Part shown: piece by piece, positions 3,809-19,193 of the stretch
How positions within the stretch are numbered: the stretch's first letter is position 1
Layout: the number at the start of each line of letters is the position of its first letter
Virus record (IMG/VR): IMGVR_UViG_3300042507_005434
Coordinates: 1 to 22,610 of that record
DNA from: a virus
Length of the DNA: 22,610 nt
Reading direction: 5' to 3' (one strand)
Program-made: the position numbers and the translations under genes
The notes under the pieces: generated by a model
Told to the model about the DNA's origin: nothing
Database searches by the model: none
The model's input: the letters and a program-made list of their open reading frames with translations, nothing else

Positions 3809-5734
3809 CTAGGTGGTCATGGCGGTCTGCGGCAGGCGGTCTTGAAACTCCCGCATGAAGGTGTCTTTGAGCCAGTTGTAAATTTGCGTGGCTGAATCTT
3901 CGGGCTTTGCGCCGGGGTTGCCTGCCTTGGCTTGTTCTTCTTCCTGTTTGCGCTGCGCTTCGGGTTTGGCGGCATCTTGACCCATGCGCTCGAGGGCTTT
4001 GGCGGCTTCTTCTTGTCGGCGTTTCTCCGCGCGTGCCATCATGTTGGCGGCGCTGCCGTGGAGGCCCATCGCGTCCAACTGTGAAGCGCGGTTTTCCGCA
4101 CGGCTCAACCTGTCGTTGATTTGCCCGATACTACGCATCGCCGCAGGGTCAAAATTTCTGGCTAGGCTGGACAGTTGTTGGAACGGCGTTTGGGCCGCTC
4201 CGCCGCCACCACCGCCACGACTGCTGCCACCACCACCGCCACGACTGCTGCCGCCGCCAGAGGCAATCGGCGGAAGGCTGGCTGGATTCATGCCAAAAAT
4301 TCCGGGAGGCGGGGCAGGATTAAGAGAAAACGGCTGTTGTTGCCCCATGCTGCTCGCCATGGGATTAAATGGGTTGCTCTTGGCTAGCGCGGCGGCGATT
4401 TTCTCAGACTCGACGCGCGCGGTGATAAAGTCTTGGGCTATGGTGGCCGATCCTTTTTCTTGGGCCGTCAAAATGTGCCGAGCTGCGTCGGCGGCAGATT
4501 GCTCCACGCCAAGCCAATCTTTGGATAGTATCTCTGTGGAATTTAGCGCACTATCAAAAGCCTTTTGGATCTGTTCGCCACCGTTTGTGAAGATTTTGTA
4601 GTTTTCAGCGCTTATGTTTTGCAGGGTCTTTTGAACATCCTGCAATGATGCCAATGCCGCGCGGAAAGGATCGCCAATGATTCCCGGCAAGGTGCTAAGA
4701 GGACGCAGAAATACATATTCCACACCGTAGGCCAAAGCCTTGTTGAAGCTGTTCACGGCTTCGAGCAATAGCGCTTTGATTCGTGTGCCTAGACCGACAG
4801 CATAATCTTCGGCGGAAACGGTCTTGGTAAATGCTTGCGCGGCAAAGATGGCGGCATTGATCAACGCATTGCCTGCCTCTTTTGCTCCGGTGAGCAAAGT
4901 GTAGCCAATGGCTTTTGAAGTTTCCAACGGCGCGGCAAAAGCATTGCGGAGCTGCTCGCCAAGGTCCGCCCCGATTCCTGCCGCGTCGATCTTGGCAAGG
5001 GCCGAGGCAAAGTTGTCCGCGCCCGCCGCTCCCGATATTAAGCCCGCGACAAAATGATTAACCTTATCTCCCAGCGCCGCAATATCGTCATCCATATCGG
5101 CCATTGCTGCCGCGCTTTTATCAAGCAGTCCAGGCAGTGAACCTAAGTATCCTTGCGCCTTGTCGAGTTCACCGCTAAAATTCGAAAAAAGCGGGATTAA
5201 GGTGCTTCCGCTGCGTCCAAAAATATCCATCGCTGCCGCAGTGCGCTCAGCTGGAGTCGGCAGAGCCATGATGCTTTTGGCGAGCAAGCGCATTTGCTCT
5301 GTTGGTGTAAGATTGCCAAGTTGAGCGTAAGACAATCCCAGTTTGTTCAGTGTTTCAACTTGGGTTTTCCCCCCTTCATTGGCTTCAACTATAAACCTGC
5401 TAAGTCGGGCAATCGCTGGACCGACTGCATCAGCCGACGATCCCGCCAGCACAAAAGCCTTTTCTAGCAAAAGCAATTCACCAGCACTTGCACCGGTTGT
5501 CTTGGACAAGTCGTCCAACCGTCCCGCCATGTTTAGAGCATCACGAAAGCCCGAGATGGCTTGATTTACACCAACAAAAGCCGCTCCAATTCCCGCGATT
5601 TTTGTCGCAATGCTGCCAAAGCTCGAAGAGATCGCACCGCTGGCGGACGCGGCGACAGATTGCAGGTGCTTGGCTCCGCTGTCGAAGCCAGCGGTATTGA
5701 TGCCTGCGTTGAATTTAATTGCTTCTCCGGCCAT
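3809..5734 (-). CDS. Tail tape measure protein
   Basis: At 641 residues this is the longest protein in the window. Evidence is the tape-measure composition and order. The Ala/Gly/Ser-rich N-terminus (MAGEAIKFNAGINTAGFDSG) is followed by long amphipathic helices. Several hydrophobic stretches follow, such as IATKIAGIGAAFVGVN (about residues 43-58) and FVAGLISGAAGA (about 230-240). The motif AERTAAAMDIFGRSGSTLIPLF (about residues 166-187) is typical of phage tape measures. A Gly/Ser/Arg linker at about residues 492-514 precedes a charged coiled-coil region (ARAEKRRQEEAAKALERM). The protein sets tail length and is ejected with the DNA. Start: ATG at 5732-5734, with a TTGACACC element 22 bases upstream and no Shine-Dalgarno. 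The previous gene stops 18 bases upstream. Confidence 0.93.
   Translation of the reverse strand: MAGEAIKFNAGINTAGFDSGAKHLQSVAASASGAISSSFGSIATKIAGIGAAFVGVNQAISGFRDALNMAGRLDDLSKTTGASAGELLLLEKAFVLAGSSADAVGPAIARLSRFIVEANEGGKTQVETLNKLGLSYAQLGNLTPTEQMRLLAKSIMALPTPAERTAAAMDIFGRSGSTLIPLFSNFSGELDKAQGYLGSLPGLLDKSAAAMADMDDDIAALGDKVNHFVAGLISGAAGADNFASALAKIDAAGIGADLGEQLRNAFAAPLETSKAIGYTLLTGAKEAGNALINAAIFAAQAFTKTVSAEDYAVGLGTRIKALLLEAVNSFNKALAYGVEYVFLRPLSTLPGIIGDPFRAALASLQDVQKTLQNISAENYKIFTNGGEQIQKAFDSALNSTEILSKDWLGVEQSAADAARHILTAQEKGSATIAQDFITARVESEKIAAALAKSNPFNPMASSMGQQQPFSLNPAPPPGIFGMNPASLPPIASGGGSSRGGGGGSSRGGGGGGAAQTPFQQLSSLARNFDPAAMRSIGQINDRLSRAENRASQLDAMGLHGSAANMMARAEKRRQEEAAKALERMGQDAAKPEAQRKQEEEQAKAGNPGAKPEDSATQIYNWLKDTFMREFQDRLPQTAMTT
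4206..4252 (-). repeat. Two copies of a 24-bp tandem repeat coding a Gly/Ser/Arg linker
   Basis: Two copies with a 24-base period (first at 4206, second at 4230) lie inside the tape measure gene and code for alternating GGGG and SSRG units. It is a low-complexity, slippage-prone linker between the membrane-active middle and the charged C-terminal helix of the protein. Confidence 0.7.
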
Positions 5735-5752: not shown

Positions 5753-6511
5753 TCAAGAAACCGAGCCAAGGCCCGGATAGCGGGTCATGGTGCTTTTAAT
5801 TTGTTTCGACGCGGCGAGCTTGACGCTTTTGCTGAAGAAGTTAGCGCGGGCGTTAAGGGCTTTGCGAAAAGCGGTGCCCGCTTGGGCCCATCGGTTTAGG
5901 TGTGTGAGGTTGTTGACGAAGCCGACTTCGTAGGAGGAGCCGCTGCCCTTGCTCATGACTTGGATCAAATCGCGCATTTCGCCTTTTTTGTGGTGCGCGG
6001 CTTTTTTGAGATAGCCGGGAGCCTTGACGGGAATGTTGAGTGCTTCGCCGATCTTGACGAACATCGAGGCGGCAAGCCCGCGCGCTTGCTTTTTGCGATC
6101 CAGCGACTTGGTCCTCTGCTCCTGCATCTGCCGCCACAGCCACGCGGGATAGGCTTTGGGCTCGTTGCTCGCGCTGAAATAATAGACCAGCTTGCCGTTC
6201 TTGGCCTTGGCGCGACGCTCGGCGGCTCGTTGCTTTAGTCGGGAGATTTGTCCTGGCGTGTATTGTTTGCCCGTTCGGCTTTCTGGGCCAGAGTAAGCAA
6301 AGTCGTATTTGGCACCAGGGCGTTTGCGGTGGTTGGTCTCGATGGTTTTGACCGTGGCTTTTTTGGTCGTTCGCACCGCGCTGGTCAGCATCGCTCCCAG
6401 CTCGTGCTTCATCACGGTCTCAAAATCCTTGCCGCTAATCTTCCGCAAATCGGTGAGCGCCGCATGGAATCGGCGGGCAGCTTTTTCGTCGGGGGAGATT
6501 TTGACCTGCAC
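5753..6511 (-). CDS. Basic hypothetical protein between the tail chaperones and the tape measure
   Basis: This 252-residue protein starts at GTG (6509-6511), one base after the stop of the chaperone extension, with a CTGACACC element 19 bases upstream. It is strongly basic: TTKKATVKTIETNHRKRPG, SRLKQRAAERRAKAKNG and KKAAHHKKGEMRD are all Lys/Arg-rich. The N-terminal part (FETVMKHELGAMLTSAVRTTKK) has a weak resemblance to gp10-type tail-completion proteins, but I would not assign it. A protein of this size between the G/GT pair and the tape measure is unusual, since in lambda the tape measure follows directly. It could bind the tape measure, DNA or RNA. Function unknown. Confidence 0.8.
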   Translation of the reverse strand: MQVKISPDEKAARRFHAALTDLRKISGKDFETVMKHELGAMLTSAVRTTKKATVKTIETNHRKRPGAKYDFAYSGPESRTGKQYTPGQISRLKQRAAERRAKAKNGKLVYYFSASNEPKAYPAWLWRQMQEQRTKSLDRKKQARGLAASMFVKIGEALNIPVKAPGYLKKAAHHKKGEMRDLIQVMSKGSGSSYEVGFVNNLTHLNRWAQAGTAFRKALNARANFFSKSVKLAASKQIKSTMTRYPGLGSVS

Positions 6512-6512
6512 G

Positions 6513-7135
6513 CTAGACGGCAGGTGTCAGCGCGTCGGCGAGCAGTTGGTCGATGTCGCGGACGGTGGAGGTTCCGCTATCCATCCAGCGCGGGGAGCGA
6601 CCGGCGGCGAGTTCGTCGAGCACGATGAGCTGGTTGAGCATGGCCAACGGCACACGCCACAGGGCGTCCTCGAGGGTTAGGCCGTATTTTGTGACCCGCG
6701 CCGCGATGGCTAACTGCCACGACGGACGGGCCTTTAGGCTTTTGGGGAGTCGTCCATCGTCGGCGCGGCGTTGCCGCTGGCGGTGATGGAGGCGGCAACC
6801 ATCTCGACTTGACGCGTGATCCACGGCAGGAACGCGAACATGTCGCCGGGCGGGCGGGTGTCCATAAACTCGAAGATGTCGGCTGTGAGGTCGTCGATGG
6901 TGGCGATGCGGCGGCGAATATCGGCAATCGTGCGACTGTGCAAATAGACGAACGAATAGACGTTGAAGGCGTAGTCGCCGGACTGCTCGCCGGTGACGAA
7001 GCTGTTTTTAAGTCGTGAAAGCAAAGACCAAGTTGCCGACGTGATGGGCCGGAGCTCCAGGTCGTTCACTTGTTCGTTGCCTGCAAAGGTCGCCTGCTCG
7101 AGCAGGCCCGCGCGTTTTTCGGGGTCGATGTCCAT
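6513..7135 (-). CDS. Tail assembly chaperone frameshift product (gpGT type)
   Basis: Ribosomes that slip -1 at the heptamer at 6740-6746 leave the 133-aa gpG-like frame after Lys132. They add 75 residues, SLKARPSWQLAIAARVTKYG... to ...LLADALTPAV, for a 207-aa fusion. The extension frame has no plausible start codon of its own after the upstream stop, which argues against a separate gene. The added domain contains LTLEDALWRVPLAMLNQL, a short helical pattern like the T part of siphophage chaperones. That part binds the tail tube protein while the G part binds the tape measure. Position upstream of the tape measure fits. The fusion is inferred from sequence; its efficiency is unknown. Confidence 0.82.
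6734..7135 (-). CDS. Tail assembly chaperone, zero-frame product (gpG type)
   Basis: This is a 133-residue protein from ATG 7133-7135 to a TAA at 6734-6736. It is mostly helical and acidic (MDIDPEKRAGLLEQATFAGN ... TIDDLTADIFEFMDTRPPGD) and ends MDDSPKA. The stop lies just one codon after the slippery CCA AAA pair. In lambda and many long-tailed phages the gene two to three places before the tape measure encodes gpG, the abundant chaperone that coats the tape measure, with a minor frameshifted gpGT. The arrangement here matches. Upstream is a TTGACAAT element at 22 bases and no Shine-Dalgarno; further upstream is a hairpin that may be a terminator. Confidence 0.85.
   Translation of the reverse strand: MDIDPEKRAGLLEQATFAGNEQVNDLELRPITSATWSLLSRLKNSFVTGEQSGDYAFNVYSFVYLHSRTIADIRRRIATIDDLTADIFEFMDTRPPGDMFAFLPWITRQVEMVAASITASGNAAPTMDDSPKA
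6740..6746 (-). other. -1 ribosomal frameshift slippery heptamer
   Basis: On the minus strand the sequence is C CCA AAA in the zero frame, a perfect X XXY YYZ heptamer, followed by GCC and the zero-frame stop TAA. After a -1 slip, Pro and Lys codons become CCC and AAA, so both tRNAs can re-pair. The -1 frame is open from here to the TAG at 6513-6515. I did not find an obvious strong downstream stem by eye. Confidence 0.82.
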
Positions 7136-7228: not shown

Positions 7229-7630
7229 TCACATGACGAGTTGCGCGACGTCCCTTTTGGTTTTGGCGTCGAGCTTTTCGTCGGCCAGCATCACGCCGCC
7301 GTTGGGCAGGTTCACCATGACGAGGCGGCGGGTTCGTTTGAAAATGACGTCCAATAGCAGCTCGCGGTTGAAAAGTGACGCGCGCGCGCCGGGCAGGTCG
7401 GGAAGTTGGTCGCGGAGGGCTTCGCACGCCTCTTGACTTTCGAGGATGGCGGCAACGATCTGGCCGGTGGAGAGTCCGCCTGCGCCGTCGGGGCTGAACC
7501 AGTAGTGCACAACCTCGCGCCCTTTCTGGACAACGCGCGAAATCGGGTCCTGTTGGCGAAGTGGGACGCCCACCGTGCAAAGGGTGGCGGCGACTTTTGT
7601 GTCCGTCGTGGCGTAGTAAGCGACCTGCAT
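7229..7630 (-). CDS. Hypothetical protein between tail tube and chaperones
   Basis: This 133-residue protein starts at ATG 7628-7630, 33 bases after the tail tube stop. The N-terminus MQVAYYATTDTKVAATLCTV is followed by PLRQQDPISRVVQKG, a central helical part (QIVAAILESQEACEALRDQLPDLPG) and a basic C-terminal part (LDVIFKRTRRLVMVNLPNGG ... KTKRDVAQLVM). No catalytic motif, signal peptide or membrane segment. It does not look like a known tail tube or chaperone to me. Composition is normal for a real gene. It is followed by a hairpin, so the transcript may be attenuated after it. A small tail-assembly factor is a reasonable guess, nothing more. Confidence 0.75.
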   Translation of the reverse strand: MQVAYYATTDTKVAATLCTVGVPLRQQDPISRVVQKGREVVHYWFSPDGAGGLSTGQIVAAILESQEACEALRDQLPDLPGARASLFNRELLLDVIFKRTRRLVMVNLPNGGVMLADEKLDAKTKRDVAQLVM

Positions 7631-7663: not shown

Positions 7664-8011
7664 TTAGAAGCCGTGGTTGGAAGCGCCGATCGTCACCGAT
7701 TGGAAATCATTGGGCGCGCGGTTCACGGCCACGCTGTCCACGTAGAACGTGCCGGTGACGCCACCGAGGCTCGCTGTGGCGTTGGCCAGGGTGATCGAGG
7801 CGCCGATGGTGGGCAGAGCGGCTTTGATGTATCCGCTCATGGAGGCGACGGACTTTTTGCCGTGATAGGCAACGGCGACATGATCGCCGTCCTCGTCCAC
7901 AACGACGGTTTTGTCGCTGTCAGAGGTTTGCGAGAAAGAGGTGAAGACCGCGACGGTTTCGGAGGAACCGCCGAAAGTGATTGAAGTAAGTCCGATAATG
8001 GTTGCACTCAT
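7664..8011 (-). CDS. Major tail tube protein (probable)
   Basis: This is a 115-residue protein. I start it at the ATG 8009-8011 (MSATIIGLTSITFGG); an upstream in-frame TTG would add only MTTHQWQ and lies inside a TTGACAAC element. It is beta-rich: HVAVAYHGKKSVASMSGYIK, then a Gly/Ala-rich middle, then GTFYVDSVAVNRAPNDFQSVTIGA. The '(F)YVDSV... NDF ... VTI' ending resembles small tail tube proteins of long-tailed phages. Position after the connector genes and before the chaperone/tape-measure set is exactly where the tube gene sits. It is shorter than lambda gpV (246 aa), which carries an extra Ig domain. Assigned by context and pattern. Confidence 0.72.
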   Translation of the reverse strand: MSATIIGLTSITFGGSSETVAVFTSFSQTSDSDKTVVVDEDGDHVAVAYHGKKSVASMSGYIKAALPTIGASITLANATASLGGVTGTFYVDSVAVNRAPNDFQSVTIGASNHGF

Positions 8012-8035
8012 TTGCCATTGGTGCGTTGTCAACTT

Positions 8036-8663: not shown

Positions 8664-8965
8664 TTTGTGTCGGGGCTTTGCAGGGTGAGATCAATGGTGG
8701 CGGTGTCGGTGTCGATTTGCGTGATGCGGTAGCGGCGGCCTTGAAACTTGACGATGCCGCCAAGGCGGAAGGCCGGGGCCCCGTCTTTGAGCACGGTGGC
8801 GGTGAGTCCCCTTGCCGCCTCGAAGCCGCCTTCGCCCAAGGCGTTGCCATACGTTTCCTCGCCCACCACGGCCAAATAGCAGCGCTCACGATATTCGATT
8901 TGGTCGCGGATGGTGCCGACGGCTTCGGCGCTGGCGGCGGTGTAGGCCTGGGCAAACTGGCTCAT
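8660..8965 (-). CDS. Head-tail joining protein (gpFII-like, probable)
   Basis: This 101-residue protein starts at ATG 8963-8965, overlapping the glycosyltransferase stop as ATGA. The C-terminal half ends with a beta-strand set, GGIVKFQGRRYRITQIDTDTATIDLTLQSPDTK. The text 'F.GRRYRI..I..D.ATIDLTL' is typical of small head-completion/stopper proteins of the FII group, which plug the portal-adaptor ring and receive the tail. A CTGACACC element is present 19 bases upstream of the start. It is separated from the capsid gene by the methyltransferase/glycosyltransferase cassette, a sign that the cassette was inserted into an older head-connector order. Confidence 0.7.
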   Translation of the reverse strand: MSQFAQAYTAASAEAVGTIRDQIEYRERCYLAVVGEETYGNALGEGGFEAARGLTATVLKDGAPAFRLGGIVKFQGRRYRITQIDTDTATIDLTLQSPDTK

Positions 8966-10746
8966 GCGCTGGGGGTGGTGTCAGCTTTCGGCACGAGGTC
9001 GGGATTGCGGCGGCGGAAGATGGCCTCACCGACTTGAAAGGCGTCCTCGGAGTTTTCGGCGGCATAGGTGGCGTCGGTCGGCACGGCGGGATTCCAAAAC
9101 GGATGCTCGTGCTTGAAGACCAAATCGGACGGGACGAGAAAACCGCTGCGTTTGGCGCGCATGGAAAACTCGGTGTCGGAAAACACTCCGGCATATTCGG
9201 GAGCGAGGATGTTTTGCTCGCCATAGCCGAGATGCGGAAACGTCGGGCGGGTGACGCAGAACGTGACCATCAAGTCGTCGTTGCGGTAGCCGTCTTTGAT
9301 TTGCAGAATTGCTGGTTGGTTGGCGTCTACATGCGCGCGCAAAGCGTCCTCAATCGCCACGTCCCAATGAAGCGGCGGGAATACGTCGTCTTGCGCGGTG
9401 ATGATGATTTGCCCGGTGGCGGCGTTGGTTGCGGCGTTGTAATTTTGGACGGCGGTTCCGCCAATGCGGTCGAGGTTGCCAGCGGGTGAAACGGCATGAC
9501 GGAAGCGGGAGAGGATGCCTGCGGATTCTTCGTCGTCCGCGCTAAAGCCGAAGATGTATTCGATGCGCTCCGGGTTGGCGGCGGCATCGAGCCAGCGTTT
9601 GCGGGTGAGCGCGGCCTGTTGCGCGCGGCCACGGGTGGGATGGCACACGCTGATGCTGTATTTGTGGCCCTTGAGCCGCGCGCGCTCAATATCATCAGCC
9701 TTGTCGGGTTGGCCGGACATGCGGAGCCATTGCGTCCAAAGTGCTTCACCGGCCCAGCCGTAGAGGCCGTCGCGGTGTGTCCACGGCTTGTCCACCGGGC
9801 GCGGCAAGGCCATCATTGCGCGGATGTAGGCTTCGGCGGTCACAAGGTCGCCAAGATCAAGGTGCATCGCGCCAAGCAGGGCCAAGGCCTCGCGGCGGTT
9901 GGGTTGCGTGCGGTACGCACTGTGCAGCGCCGTGAGCATGGCCTTGTATTCGGCGCTGTCCGTTTCGAGAATCGGCGGGCGGGCCAGTTCGCAGATGTTT
10001 AGGCAAAGCTCGTAACGCTCGGTGGCTTTGAGGTTCGGGTGTGCCAAGGCTTGCTTGGCGAGATCCATAGCCTCGGCTTTGCGTCCGTGGCCCATGTATT
10101 CGCCGTGGAGATGGTAAAGCTCGCTGACGGTGCGCTCGGCTTCGGGGATGCTTTCGAGGATGGTCAAATTGCGGTTGCTGCCTTGCTTGGGCTCGTCGTC
10201 GGGCAGGTGCACGACGGTGGGTTCGTCACAGCGGGCGATGTTGGTCCCGGCGTCCATCTGGAAATTCTCATGGATGCGATTGACCCATCGGCCCTTGTCG
10301 CGGCGGACGAGGCGTTCGCGGAGGTTGTGGGCGATGCCGCGACCGGCCACGTTGTGATACAGGGCAAAGGCGTCGAATTTGTCGCCGTGTTTTTCAAGCA
10401 GCTCGTGCAGGGCGCTGGCGAAATTCGGGCCGGGTGTGTCGTCGCTATCCACCCACAGCGCCCAAGGCTTCGAGGCGAGGTCGAAGGACTTTTGCCGCGC
10501 GGCTCCAAAGTCGTCTACATGCGGCCATTGATTGCCGGGGGCGTTGGCATAAACGCCGTAGATCGCGCCGTGCTTTTGGCACACTTCGGCAACCTTGAGG
10601 TTTTTCGCGTCGGCTCCACAGGCATGAACCACGACCATTTCGCCAACGGCGGGGCCGAATTGAGTGAGGCAACGGTCAAGCCGTTTGGGTTCGTTGCCGA
10701 CGATGACACAAAGCGCGATCTGCTCGCGTGGGCTGGTTTTCTCCAT
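8962..10746 (-). CDS. Tandem glycosyltransferase with central TPR-like helices
   Basis: This is a 594-residue protein. Residues 8-105 have the GT2/GT-A start (IALCVIVGNEPKRLDRCL) and the acidic nucleotide-sugar motif WVDSDD at 98-103. Residues about 195-355 are helical repeats resembling TPRs (HLDLGDLVTAEAYIRAMMALP). From about 361 a second GT-A-like unit begins (HKYSISVCHPTRGRAQQAAL). It has IITAQDDVFPP (acidic pair 453-454) and a late SDLVFKHEHPFW histidine motif. Two donors or two steps, or one catalytic and one binding domain, are possible. The likely target is a virion protein, since no hydroxymethyl-nucleotide gene is seen. Start: ATG 10744-10746; a TTGACAAC element lies 23 bases upstream, and the methyltransferase stop TGA is inside that element. 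Confidence 0.85.
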   Translation of the reverse strand: MEKTSPREQIALCVIVGNEPKRLDRCLTQFGPAVGEMVVVHACGADAKNLKVAEVCQKHGAIYGVYANAPGNQWPHVDDFGAARQKSFDLASKPWALWVDSDDTPGPNFASALHELLEKHGDKFDAFALYHNVAGRGIAHNLRERLVRRDKGRWVNRIHENFQMDAGTNIARCDEPTVVHLPDDEPKQGSNRNLTILESIPEAERTVSELYHLHGEYMGHGRKAEAMDLAKQALAHPNLKATERYELCLNICELARPPILETDSAEYKAMLTALHSAYRTQPNRREALALLGAMHLDLGDLVTAEAYIRAMMALPRPVDKPWTHRDGLYGWAGEALWTQWLRMSGQPDKADDIERARLKGHKYSISVCHPTRGRAQQAALTRKRWLDAAANPERIEYIFGFSADDEESAGILSRFRHAVSPAGNLDRIGGTAVQNYNAATNAATGQIIITAQDDVFPPLHWDVAIEDALRAHVDANQPAILQIKDGYRNDDLMVTFCVTRPTFPHLGYGEQNILAPEYAGVFSDTEFSMRAKRSGFLVPSDLVFKHEHPFWNPAVPTDATYAAENSEDAFQVGEAIFRRRNPDLVPKADTTPSA

Positions 10747-10765: not shown

Positions 10766-12007
10766 TCAACAAACGGCGGCTATCCTCGCCTTGGCGATCT
10801 CGACGTATTCGGCCTCACGCTCGATGCCGATAAAGTTGAAGCCCTCCAGTGTCGCCGCCTTGCCCGTGCTGCCGCTGCCCATAAAGGGATCAAGCACGAT
10901 GCCGCCCGGTGGGGTGATGAGGCGGCAAAGGTAGCGCATTAGGGCAGTGGGCTTGACGGTGGGGTGGTGGTTGCGGGCAAGTTTAACGCCGCGCGTATGT
11001 TGAGCGCCGCCGTCCGCCCTCACCGTGCGGTCTGGCGCCTGAATCCCCTCGCATCCCTCATCACGATCCTTTTTGCTTGCCTTGGCGCAGTAGAAGAAGC
11101 GGGCGGCGGAGCCGGAGTCTCGGTATTGCTGCGTCTCAGCGTTGCCCCATGTGCCGCTGTAAACGCCACCAGAGTCTGTGCCGGTGTTACCTCCGTTTCT
11201 TGCGTTCGCCGCAGGAAACAACCCCACCACATCGTCGCTGCCGTCGTGGATTAGGTTTGCCGGCCAGCGACCTTGCTGTCTGACTTGTTTTATACGCGTG
11301 CCGCGGTCAATCCATCCGCCGCCATAAACGCTGGTTGATCCATCTGACGACTTGCATGGGGCTTCATTAAAGCGTTCGCCGTTTTCGTTTGGCGGCACCT
11401 TGCACCCATCCACATTCAGCGCACCCGTGCCGTGCTCTAGCACGTTGGCCGCCACGGTGCCGGACAGCGGCTTGCGGGCGACGGTGATGGGTTCCAGCGC
11501 GGGCTTCAGGGCGGTGCCCCAGCCTTGCCATTGCTTTGCGGCGTGGGTGGCGGGGGCGGTGATGATCGTCGTTGACGGACCGCCGAGGCTTTCGCCATAT
11601 CCTGTTTCGCCCGTGCCGTTGTTTGGGCGACGGCTTGCGTATGCGTTGACCCCCACCACCTCCCTTTTCACCCCAGCCGCCTTATCCATCGCCTTGCTAA
11701 CGTCGTGCGACTTCGGAAACCCTGATCCATACACCCACGCAATCATGTCCCGAATTTCAAAGCCTGCGTCCTCAATCCGCACGGCCATCCGGTGTTGCGT
11801 GCGCGTACCCGCAAACGCCAGCAAATGCCCGCCCGGCTTGAGCACCCGCAAACACTCGCGCCATATCTCCTCGCTTGGCACATCGTAGTCCCAACGCTTG
11901 CCCATGAAGCTCAGGCCGTAGGGCGGGTCGGTGACGATGGAATCCACGCCGGCGTCGGGCATGGTGCGGAGAATTTCCAAACAGTCGCCGTGGTAAATCT
12001 CTTGCAT
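10766..12007 (-). CDS. Orphan DNA methyltransferase (N6-adenine/N4-cytosine type)
   Basis: This is a 413-residue protein. Motif IV DPPY is at residues 27-30 (TDPPYGLSFMGKRWD). Motif I DPFMGSGSTG comes late, at 373-382. This beta-type order, with motif IV before motif I, is that of a class of amino-methyltransferases; a closing FNFIGIEREAEYVEIAKARI completes the SAM-binding fold. The large middle (about residues 95-345) is a variable target-recognition region with several Gly-rich loops. It has no restriction endonuclease partner nearby. It probably protects phage DNA from host restriction or marks it for packaging or replication. It starts at ATG 12005-12007, 24 bases after a terminator, with a TTGACACT element 22 bases upstream. 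Confidence 0.92.
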   Translation of the reverse strand: MQEIYHGDCLEILRTMPDAGVDSIVTDPPYGLSFMGKRWDYDVPSEEIWRECLRVLKPGGHLLAFAGTRTQHRMAVRIEDAGFEIRDMIAWVYGSGFPKSHDVSKAMDKAAGVKREVVGVNAYASRRPNNGTGETGYGESLGGPSTTIITAPATHAAKQWQGWGTALKPALEPITVARKPLSGTVAANVLEHGTGALNVDGCKVPPNENGERFNEAPCKSSDGSTSVYGGGWIDRGTRIKQVRQQGRWPANLIHDGSDDVVGLFPAANARNGGNTGTDSGGVYSGTWGNAETQQYRDSGSAARFFYCAKASKKDRDEGCEGIQAPDRTVRADGGAQHTRGVKLARNHHPTVKPTALMRYLCRLITPPGGIVLDPFMGSGSTGKAATLEGFNFIGIEREAEYVEIAKARIAAVC

Positions 12008-18364: not shown

Positions 18365-19099
18365 TTACAACAGCGCAATCTGGTGCTGGCCAACCAGCCG
18401 CGCCCCGATGCTTCTGTTTTCATGTCTCCACAAAGGTTCAAGATTGGTAAAGTGCGTTGCCCTCACCATCTGCTGATGATCGGTCAGATCCCACTCAGCC
18501 AACGGGATTTTGTGGTGTATTTCCCATTCCCCGTGATTGTCCCATCGCATACCACGCTTAAACTGTTTCTCAATCCATCCGCGCGCTTCTTGGAAAGTGC
18601 ATCCAAGGTATTCGTTGGTCTTCCTGCTTTTCTTTGATTTGGTCTTGCGCGCAATCCTTGAGATCACGTTTCGCATAATCTGCCGCAGCTTAAACTCTGG
18701 CGTGTCTTTGTATTCGTAATATCTTTTACGCGCATAGTCTGCGCGCTTGCGTTTGTTCTCTTCGTGATTTCCGTAATACAAAGCCAAGGCAATAGATTTT
18801 TTGATTTCTGGATCTTTCGACCAGCAGGACATTGTTTCCCTTTGCGCCCAATCGCCTTGATCCAAATCAAACGCCCACGCCTGCCACTCCTCGACAGATT
18901 GCGGATACCTCTTGCCCCACGCATCTGGCCGCGCATTGCCAGCCCTAACAGCCGCGCGCCTATTGGCCTGTGCTCGGCTTTCAACTGGTATGCCCAGCCT
19001 GCGCTTGACCTTGTTGGGCCACGTCTTTTTAGTGCCCAGCATAAACGCCGAATGCGCGGCTGGTAGTTTGATCGCCACATGGCAATGGAAGCAGGGCAT
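18365..19099 (-). CDS. HNH endonuclease next to terminase
   Basis: This is a 244-residue protein from ATG 19097-19099, chosen because GAGG lies five bases upstream. A GTG at 19172-19174 would add 25 residues; it has the TTGACACC element 19 bases upstream and remains possible. N-terminal MPCFHCH is followed by Lys/Arg-rich helices (KRKRADYARKRYYEYK). The C-terminus is an HNH core: EYLGCTFQEARGWIEKQF, then RGMRWDNHGEWEIHHKIPLAEWD (the metal-site His pair) and HFTNLEPLWRHENRS. HNH proteins beside terminase genes are needed for cos cleavage in several long-tailed phages; homing activity is an alternative. The DNA is more AT-rich than its neighbours, suggesting separate origin. Confidence 0.88.
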   Translation of the reverse strand: MPCFHCHVAIKLPAAHSAFMLGTKKTWPNKVKRRLGIPVESRAQANRRAAVRAGNARPDAWGKRYPQSVEEWQAWAFDLDQGDWAQRETMSCWSKDPEIKKSIALALYYGNHEENKRKRADYARKRYYEYKDTPEFKLRQIMRNVISRIARKTKSKKSRKTNEYLGCTFQEARGWIEKQFKRGMRWDNHGEWEIHHKIPLAEWDLTDHQQMVRATHFTNLEPLWRHENRSIGARLVGQHQIALL

Positions 19100-19144
19100 G
19101 ATCGCCTCGTATCTGCTTCGGGTTGGCTTAAAAAGGCGCGTCGA

Positions 19145-19193
19145 TTGACACGCCGAGACACTCGGTGTTTGCACACCAGAGGTGCGGTGTCAA
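19145..19193. promoter_or_regulatory. Nested inverted repeats with two opposed TTGACAC copies
   Basis: TTGACAC (19145-19151, plus strand) and GTGTCAA (19187-19193) form an outer inverted pair. GGTGT and ACACC (19164-19177) form an inner pair around TTGC. It lies between the DUF3102-like gene and the HNH gene. It could be an operator or a weak hairpin; no T-tract follows, so it is not a typical terminator. Confidence 0.5.

Follow-up and report, generated by a model that had tools for sequence, protein, structure and literature searches.

Frameshifting that yields the paired tail proteins G and GT is widely conserved in long-tailed phages, with a G to GT ratio of 30:1 in phage lambda (PMC5009743). 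As outlined in passages of PMC5009743 that cite Levin 1993 and Xu 2004, 2013 and 2014, the lambda system comprises a small gene lying between the tail tube and tape measure genes, -1 tandem slippage near the 3' end of that gene, and a longer product whose T domain lacks a start of its own; the locus described here resembles lambda in all of these respects. In E. coli, the sequence C_CCA_AAG is described as highly prone to shifting (PMC5009743). A cluster of HK97-like tail assembly chaperones recognized by GeneTack also carries a conserved frameshift, which reached 6-7% in reporters (PMC3711429). The mechanism, a -1 slip in a tail-assembly gene, is thus well known in tailed phages, whereas the protein family of the present locus is absent from the libraries searched.

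The locus lies in an IMG/VR record, 22,610 bases long, that represents a virus and not a cellular genome; the whole of this stretch is referred to below as the window. Its structural genes follow one another on the minus strand in the order terminase, portal, ClpP-like protease, capsid, connectors, tail tube, a 133-aa gene, G, T (in the -1 frame), a 252-aa gene and tape measure (Table 1). The structural model of the probable tube protein has a pLDDT of only 62, and its best PDB fold matches are mainly to phage proteins of the tail tube, the tail tip and the neck, with baseplate proteins also represented; relatives point to an ATG at about 8011 as its start (115 aa). The 133-aa protein is 73-87% identical across all relatives, placing it among the best conserved tail genes, and gave no match in searches of Pfam and PHROG. 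A relation between the 252-aa protein and gp14 of Verrucomicrobia phage P8625 was tested and not supported. The original prediction set G and T in the classical G/GT place upstream of the tape measure. The tube fold is indeed encoded upstream and the tape measure downstream, but T does not adjoin the latter: the 252-aa gene (6511-5753) intervenes, so that, of the genes following T, the tape measure comes second and not first, and there is one extra gene on each side of the pair.

Table 1. Positions of the tail-module features in the window.
Feature	Position	Strand	Evidence
Probable tail tube protein	7664..8032	-	PDB fold matches to model
133-aa gene between tube and G	7229..7630	-	Highly conserved in relatives
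G, zero-frame gene, 133 aa, stop TAA 6736-6734	6734..7135	-	Homologues in 31 viral contigs
Slippery heptamer C CCA AAA, zero-frame phase	6740..6746	-	Invariant in all 32 sequences
Predicted stimulatory hairpin	6693..6732	-	Folding excess over codon nulls
T, -1 extension, 75 codons and stop TAG 6515-6513	6513..6740	-	Purifying selection in T frame
Next gene after T, 252 aa, GTG start 6511	5753..6511	-	Tail-module protein, also in relatives
Tape measure protein	3809..5734	-	PHROG tape-measure families E about 1e-12; phage tape measures by tblastn

Several other genes of the window and its relatives deserve mention. Between the capsid and connector genes lies a gene whose 594-aa product contains a glycosyltransferase family 2 domain (8962-10746, minus strand; Pfam E 7e-7). 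Of the 33 related tail-tube loci, 31 have this gene at 62-92% identity; the sequence upstream of the tube gene is shorter than 800 nt in the two loci without it (L068 and L073). It is apparently a core gene, and its product perhaps glycosylates virion proteins. Between the capsid and glycosyltransferase genes an N6/N4 DNA methylase is encoded (10766-12007, minus strand; Pfam E 7e-36), for which a homologue was not found in the related loci. Many relatives (L003, L009, L010, L012, L013, L015, L018, L021, L022, L026 and L050) carry an accessory insert of 600-930 nt between the 133-aa gene and G, mostly encoding fast-evolving proteins of 190-290 aa, many of which start with MATVRHLGLFPWC and end with EYWPYDPGDGLGPIYDSTTGAQLRPFP. 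At this position L016 has an opposite-strand ORF in place of the insert, apparently akin to an ORF at 18365-19174 (minus strand) of the window (tblastn match, same contig, L084). The latter resembles an HNH endonuclease by eye and has no Pfam match; its relatives in L064, L079, L084 and L092 lie on the opposite strand and are 36-39% identical to it.

The 3' end of G reads, in the zero frame, GAC GAC TCC CCA AAA GCC TAA. Reading of the minus strand codon by codon bears out the prediction that C CCA AAA stands in the zero-frame phase that a tandem -1 slip requires, and that a single codon, here GCC, separates it from the zero-frame stop TAA. The interval first assigned to the site, 6734-6746, does contain the heptamer, but the heptamer proper occupies 6746-6740 and the rest consists of GCC and TAA. 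The -1 frame is open for 75 codons, as proposed; translation after the slip runs SLKARPSWQ...LTPAV, a GT fusion would have 207 aa, and a single base separates the stop TAG (6515-6513) from the GTG at 6511 of the next gene. Five in-phase XXXYYYZ heptamers occur among the 27 genes of the window, and the one at 6746-6740 is the only one of them lying less than 100 codons from a stop.

The fused protein, its alignment and the T part alone, used as queries against viral contigs, yielded 28 relatives. The tail tube protein, a query independent of G and T, gave 33 loci, two of which lack the junction (L080 stops just past the tube gene and L090 about 1.2 kb past it). The remaining 31 all carry C CCA AAA and a -1 extension of 75-82 codons; three of them are contigs found through the tube protein that were new relative to the G/T searches. 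In every relative reaching the junction (31 of 31) exactly one sense codon separates the heptamer from the zero-frame stop of G, which itself varies among TAA, TAG and TGA. The comparison with homologous phages advised with the original prediction therefore finds the slippery site kept throughout, and relatives retaining both frames but lacking the heptamer, which were sought among these 31, did not appear.

Grouping of the first 29 sequences at 90% nucleotide identity resulted in 19 groups, across which the codon before CCA is TCC, GCC, GAC, GGC, AGC or CTC (encoding S, A, D, G or L). The wobble C of this codon is nevertheless present in 19 of 19 groups, against a background of 0.40 (about 3e-8 if independent), as are the proline codon CCA (background 0.23) and the lysine codon AAA (background 0.57); the product of such background fractions is a guide only, since the relatives share ancestry and are not statistically independent. 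With wobble C, CCA and AAA invariant, the heptamer is conserved beyond what the protein requires. In L050 the base after the heptamer is altered while the heptamer is intact. Conservation among the relatives excludes a chance origin of the heptamer. No isolate phage with GT was found by tblastn, and two scans of 84,980 cellular genomes returned no prophage relatives and hence no link to a host.

An alternative is that T is a separate gene with its own start, coupled to the stop of G, and that the heptamer is incidental. G and T do overlap, the T frame is open upstream of the slip in most genomes, and a GTG at 6824 exists mechanically in that frame of the window, opening an ORF from 6824 to 6513. 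The T frame of the window, however, contains no ATG, GTG or TTG between a point 60 nt upstream of the slip and one 87 nt downstream of it. The first start past the slip, a GTG at +87 nt, falls downstream of the best conserved stretch of T, so that its use would lose the conserved ARPxWQ..AAR..KYG motif. Stops interrupt the T frame 12-27 nt before the slip in six relatives (L016, L017, L023, L070, L092 and L093), which excludes a start just upstream in these genomes; downstream starts vary among the relatives and none is common to all. The window scan and the upstream stops together agree with the original view that T has no good start. An independently initiated T would also leave the invariant wobble C, CCA and AAA unexplained, and is very unlikely. 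That T is nonetheless translated and selected in the -1 frame follows from the distribution of its nucleotide differences, 1425 of which fall at third positions of its own frame against 804 and 480 at the other two, and from values of pN well below pS in close pairs (pN/pS of 0.14/0.47, 0.05/0.34 and 0.08/0.43). Judged from the aligned genomes, synthesis of T only as a fusion with G is the arrangement in keeping with all members.

An apparent frame break can also result from sequencing error, from decay to a pseudogene or from transcriptional slippage splitting one gene. The first two are already refuted by conservation, since 32 contigs break at the identical base and both parts of the gene are under purifying selection. 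As for transcriptional slippage, the A run comprises 4 bases (5 in L050), which is short for slippage of the polymerase. The probability left to this group of causes is negligible. Sequence comparison thus makes a programmed -1 ribosomal frameshift at C CCA AAA close to certain.

A predicted hairpin follows the heptamer at a spacing of 7 nt in the window and mostly 5-8 nt in the relatives, 5-8 nt being the usual distance for frameshift stimulators. The 54 nt after the heptamer fold more stably than synonymous recodings (mean z -2.0, below -1 in 18 of 19 groups), and a stricter null in which each genome's own codons are permuted gives a mean z of -2.0 as well, below -1 in 17 of 19 groups. A folding signal comparable to that at the junction was not found elsewhere along T. 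Two subgroups of relatives form different stems in the same place. Variable pairs are too few to prove the stem by covariation, a single wobble-wobble pair changing from C-G to U-A, and pair covariation overall gave counts no better than shuffled. A Shine-Dalgarno-like stimulator upstream is not conserved among the relatives and is absent in the window. It is the excess of folding at the junction that suggests a stimulatory role for the hairpin.

From these features we infer that slippage occurs, and at a rate that would leave it the lesser outcome. Most ribosomes would read G and terminate at the TAA at 6736-6734. In a minority, with tRNA-Pro on CCA in the P site and tRNA-Lys on AAA in the A site, both tRNAs would move back by one base to pair with CCC and AAA, aided by the hairpin 7 nt downstream, and the slipped ribosomes would read 75 more codons to give GT of 207 aa. 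The lambda model would assign to G, both free and within GT, the coating of the tape measure, and to the T part of GT the recruitment of the tail tube protein.

What kind of protein the frameshift produces is less directly indicated. Neither G nor T has a match in Pfam, PHROG or the PDB sequences (T was compared with Pfam as a single sequence). Low E-values between T and designed tandem-repeat proteins in the PDB were dismissed, as they involve an 18-residue stretch only. The model of G (pLDDT 81) shows a small, mostly helical protein in which a beta hairpin is followed by helices; it has no useful match among PDB folds, and its matches in BFVD are weak; of those that carry a name, several are tail assembly chaperones. 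Membership of the chaperones by homology is thus unproven. The place between the tube fold and the tape measure nevertheless makes a chaperone of the lambda G/GT type the best reading, and the BFVD matches, the tube fold, the tape measure and the pairs present in similar phages (below) together make it the most likely one. The original reading as a gpGT-type protein accordingly gains support from the position of the genes and from the retention of both frames and the heptamer in 31 relatives. Alternatively the frameshift may be real and its product a structural tail or neck protein. In favor of this are the lack of any sequence match or confident fold match to known chaperones and the unusual 252-aa gene that separates T from the tape measure; the location of G and T between tube and tape measure, the small helical G with its weak chaperone matches, and the recurrence of the arrangement in phages whose tape measures or portals are similar speak against it, and a structural role is improbable. 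A frameshift at this site combined with a G/GT-type chaperone role is, by comparison, highly probable.

For the annotation of this group of uncultivated phages, the consequence is a correction: the minor tail-assembly protein would be a fusion. Gene callers would break it in two or misplace its start, much as the original prediction warned.

In the literature, a search combining CCCAAAA, frameshift and phage returned one unrelated match and nothing on the site of this phage group. With the HK97-like cluster the locus shares a conserved frameshift of the tail-chaperone type, but a sequence relation was not detected. Counterparts occur in four named phages whose tape measures or portals are like those of the window (L060, L061, L062 and L063): in the gene that lies between those for tube and tape measure, the Synechococcus phages S-LBS1 and S-CBS3 have an in-phase A AAA AAC, Idiomarinaceae phage 1N2-2 has an in-phase A AAA AAG, and Caudoviricetes sp. 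ctUhy936 has an in-phase G GGA AAA. In each case the heptamer lies in the 3' part of G and the -1 extension has 83-114 codons, and the gene pairs are likely to be unannotated G/GT frameshifts. They differ from the window in their heptamers and in having G and T without detectable sequence similarity to those described here.

The nearest isolate by portal protein is Verrucomicrobia phage P8625 (NC_029047), in which gp18 (L055 7918-8535), directly before the tape measure, is a protein of 206 aa encoded in one continuous frame and containing no XXXYYYZ heptamer. Against the GT profile this protein ranks first of 331 ORFs, with E-values of only 0.06-0.09; hhalign aligns it over residues 8-72 with E 8e-4, and it has a colinear KYG..D.L..PL...QL stretch. 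These alignments are suggestive of homology to GT; such homology would mean that P8625 has lost the frameshift or has yet to gain it. A tentative and rather doubtful proposal is that the G/T family is a distinct lineage of tail assembly chaperones, absent from the searched libraries, with gp18 of the cultured phage P8625 as its distant, single-frame relative. Were the relation true, P8625 would be a natural case of the long form made without a fixed G:GT ratio, and the pair would help to test the need for that ratio in tail assembly; should it fail, the locus would be an ordinary, well-supported case of the classical mechanism.

The slippery heptamer of lambda is G GGA AAG. The window differs in its heptamer, C CCA AAA, in the strong hairpin predicted just downstream, in the extra genes of 133 aa (between tube and G) and 252 aa (between T and tape measure), and in encoding G and T proteins without detectable sequence similarity to those of lambda. 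C CCA AAA, a strongly conserved site followed by a predicted hairpin, joins the known G/GT sites.
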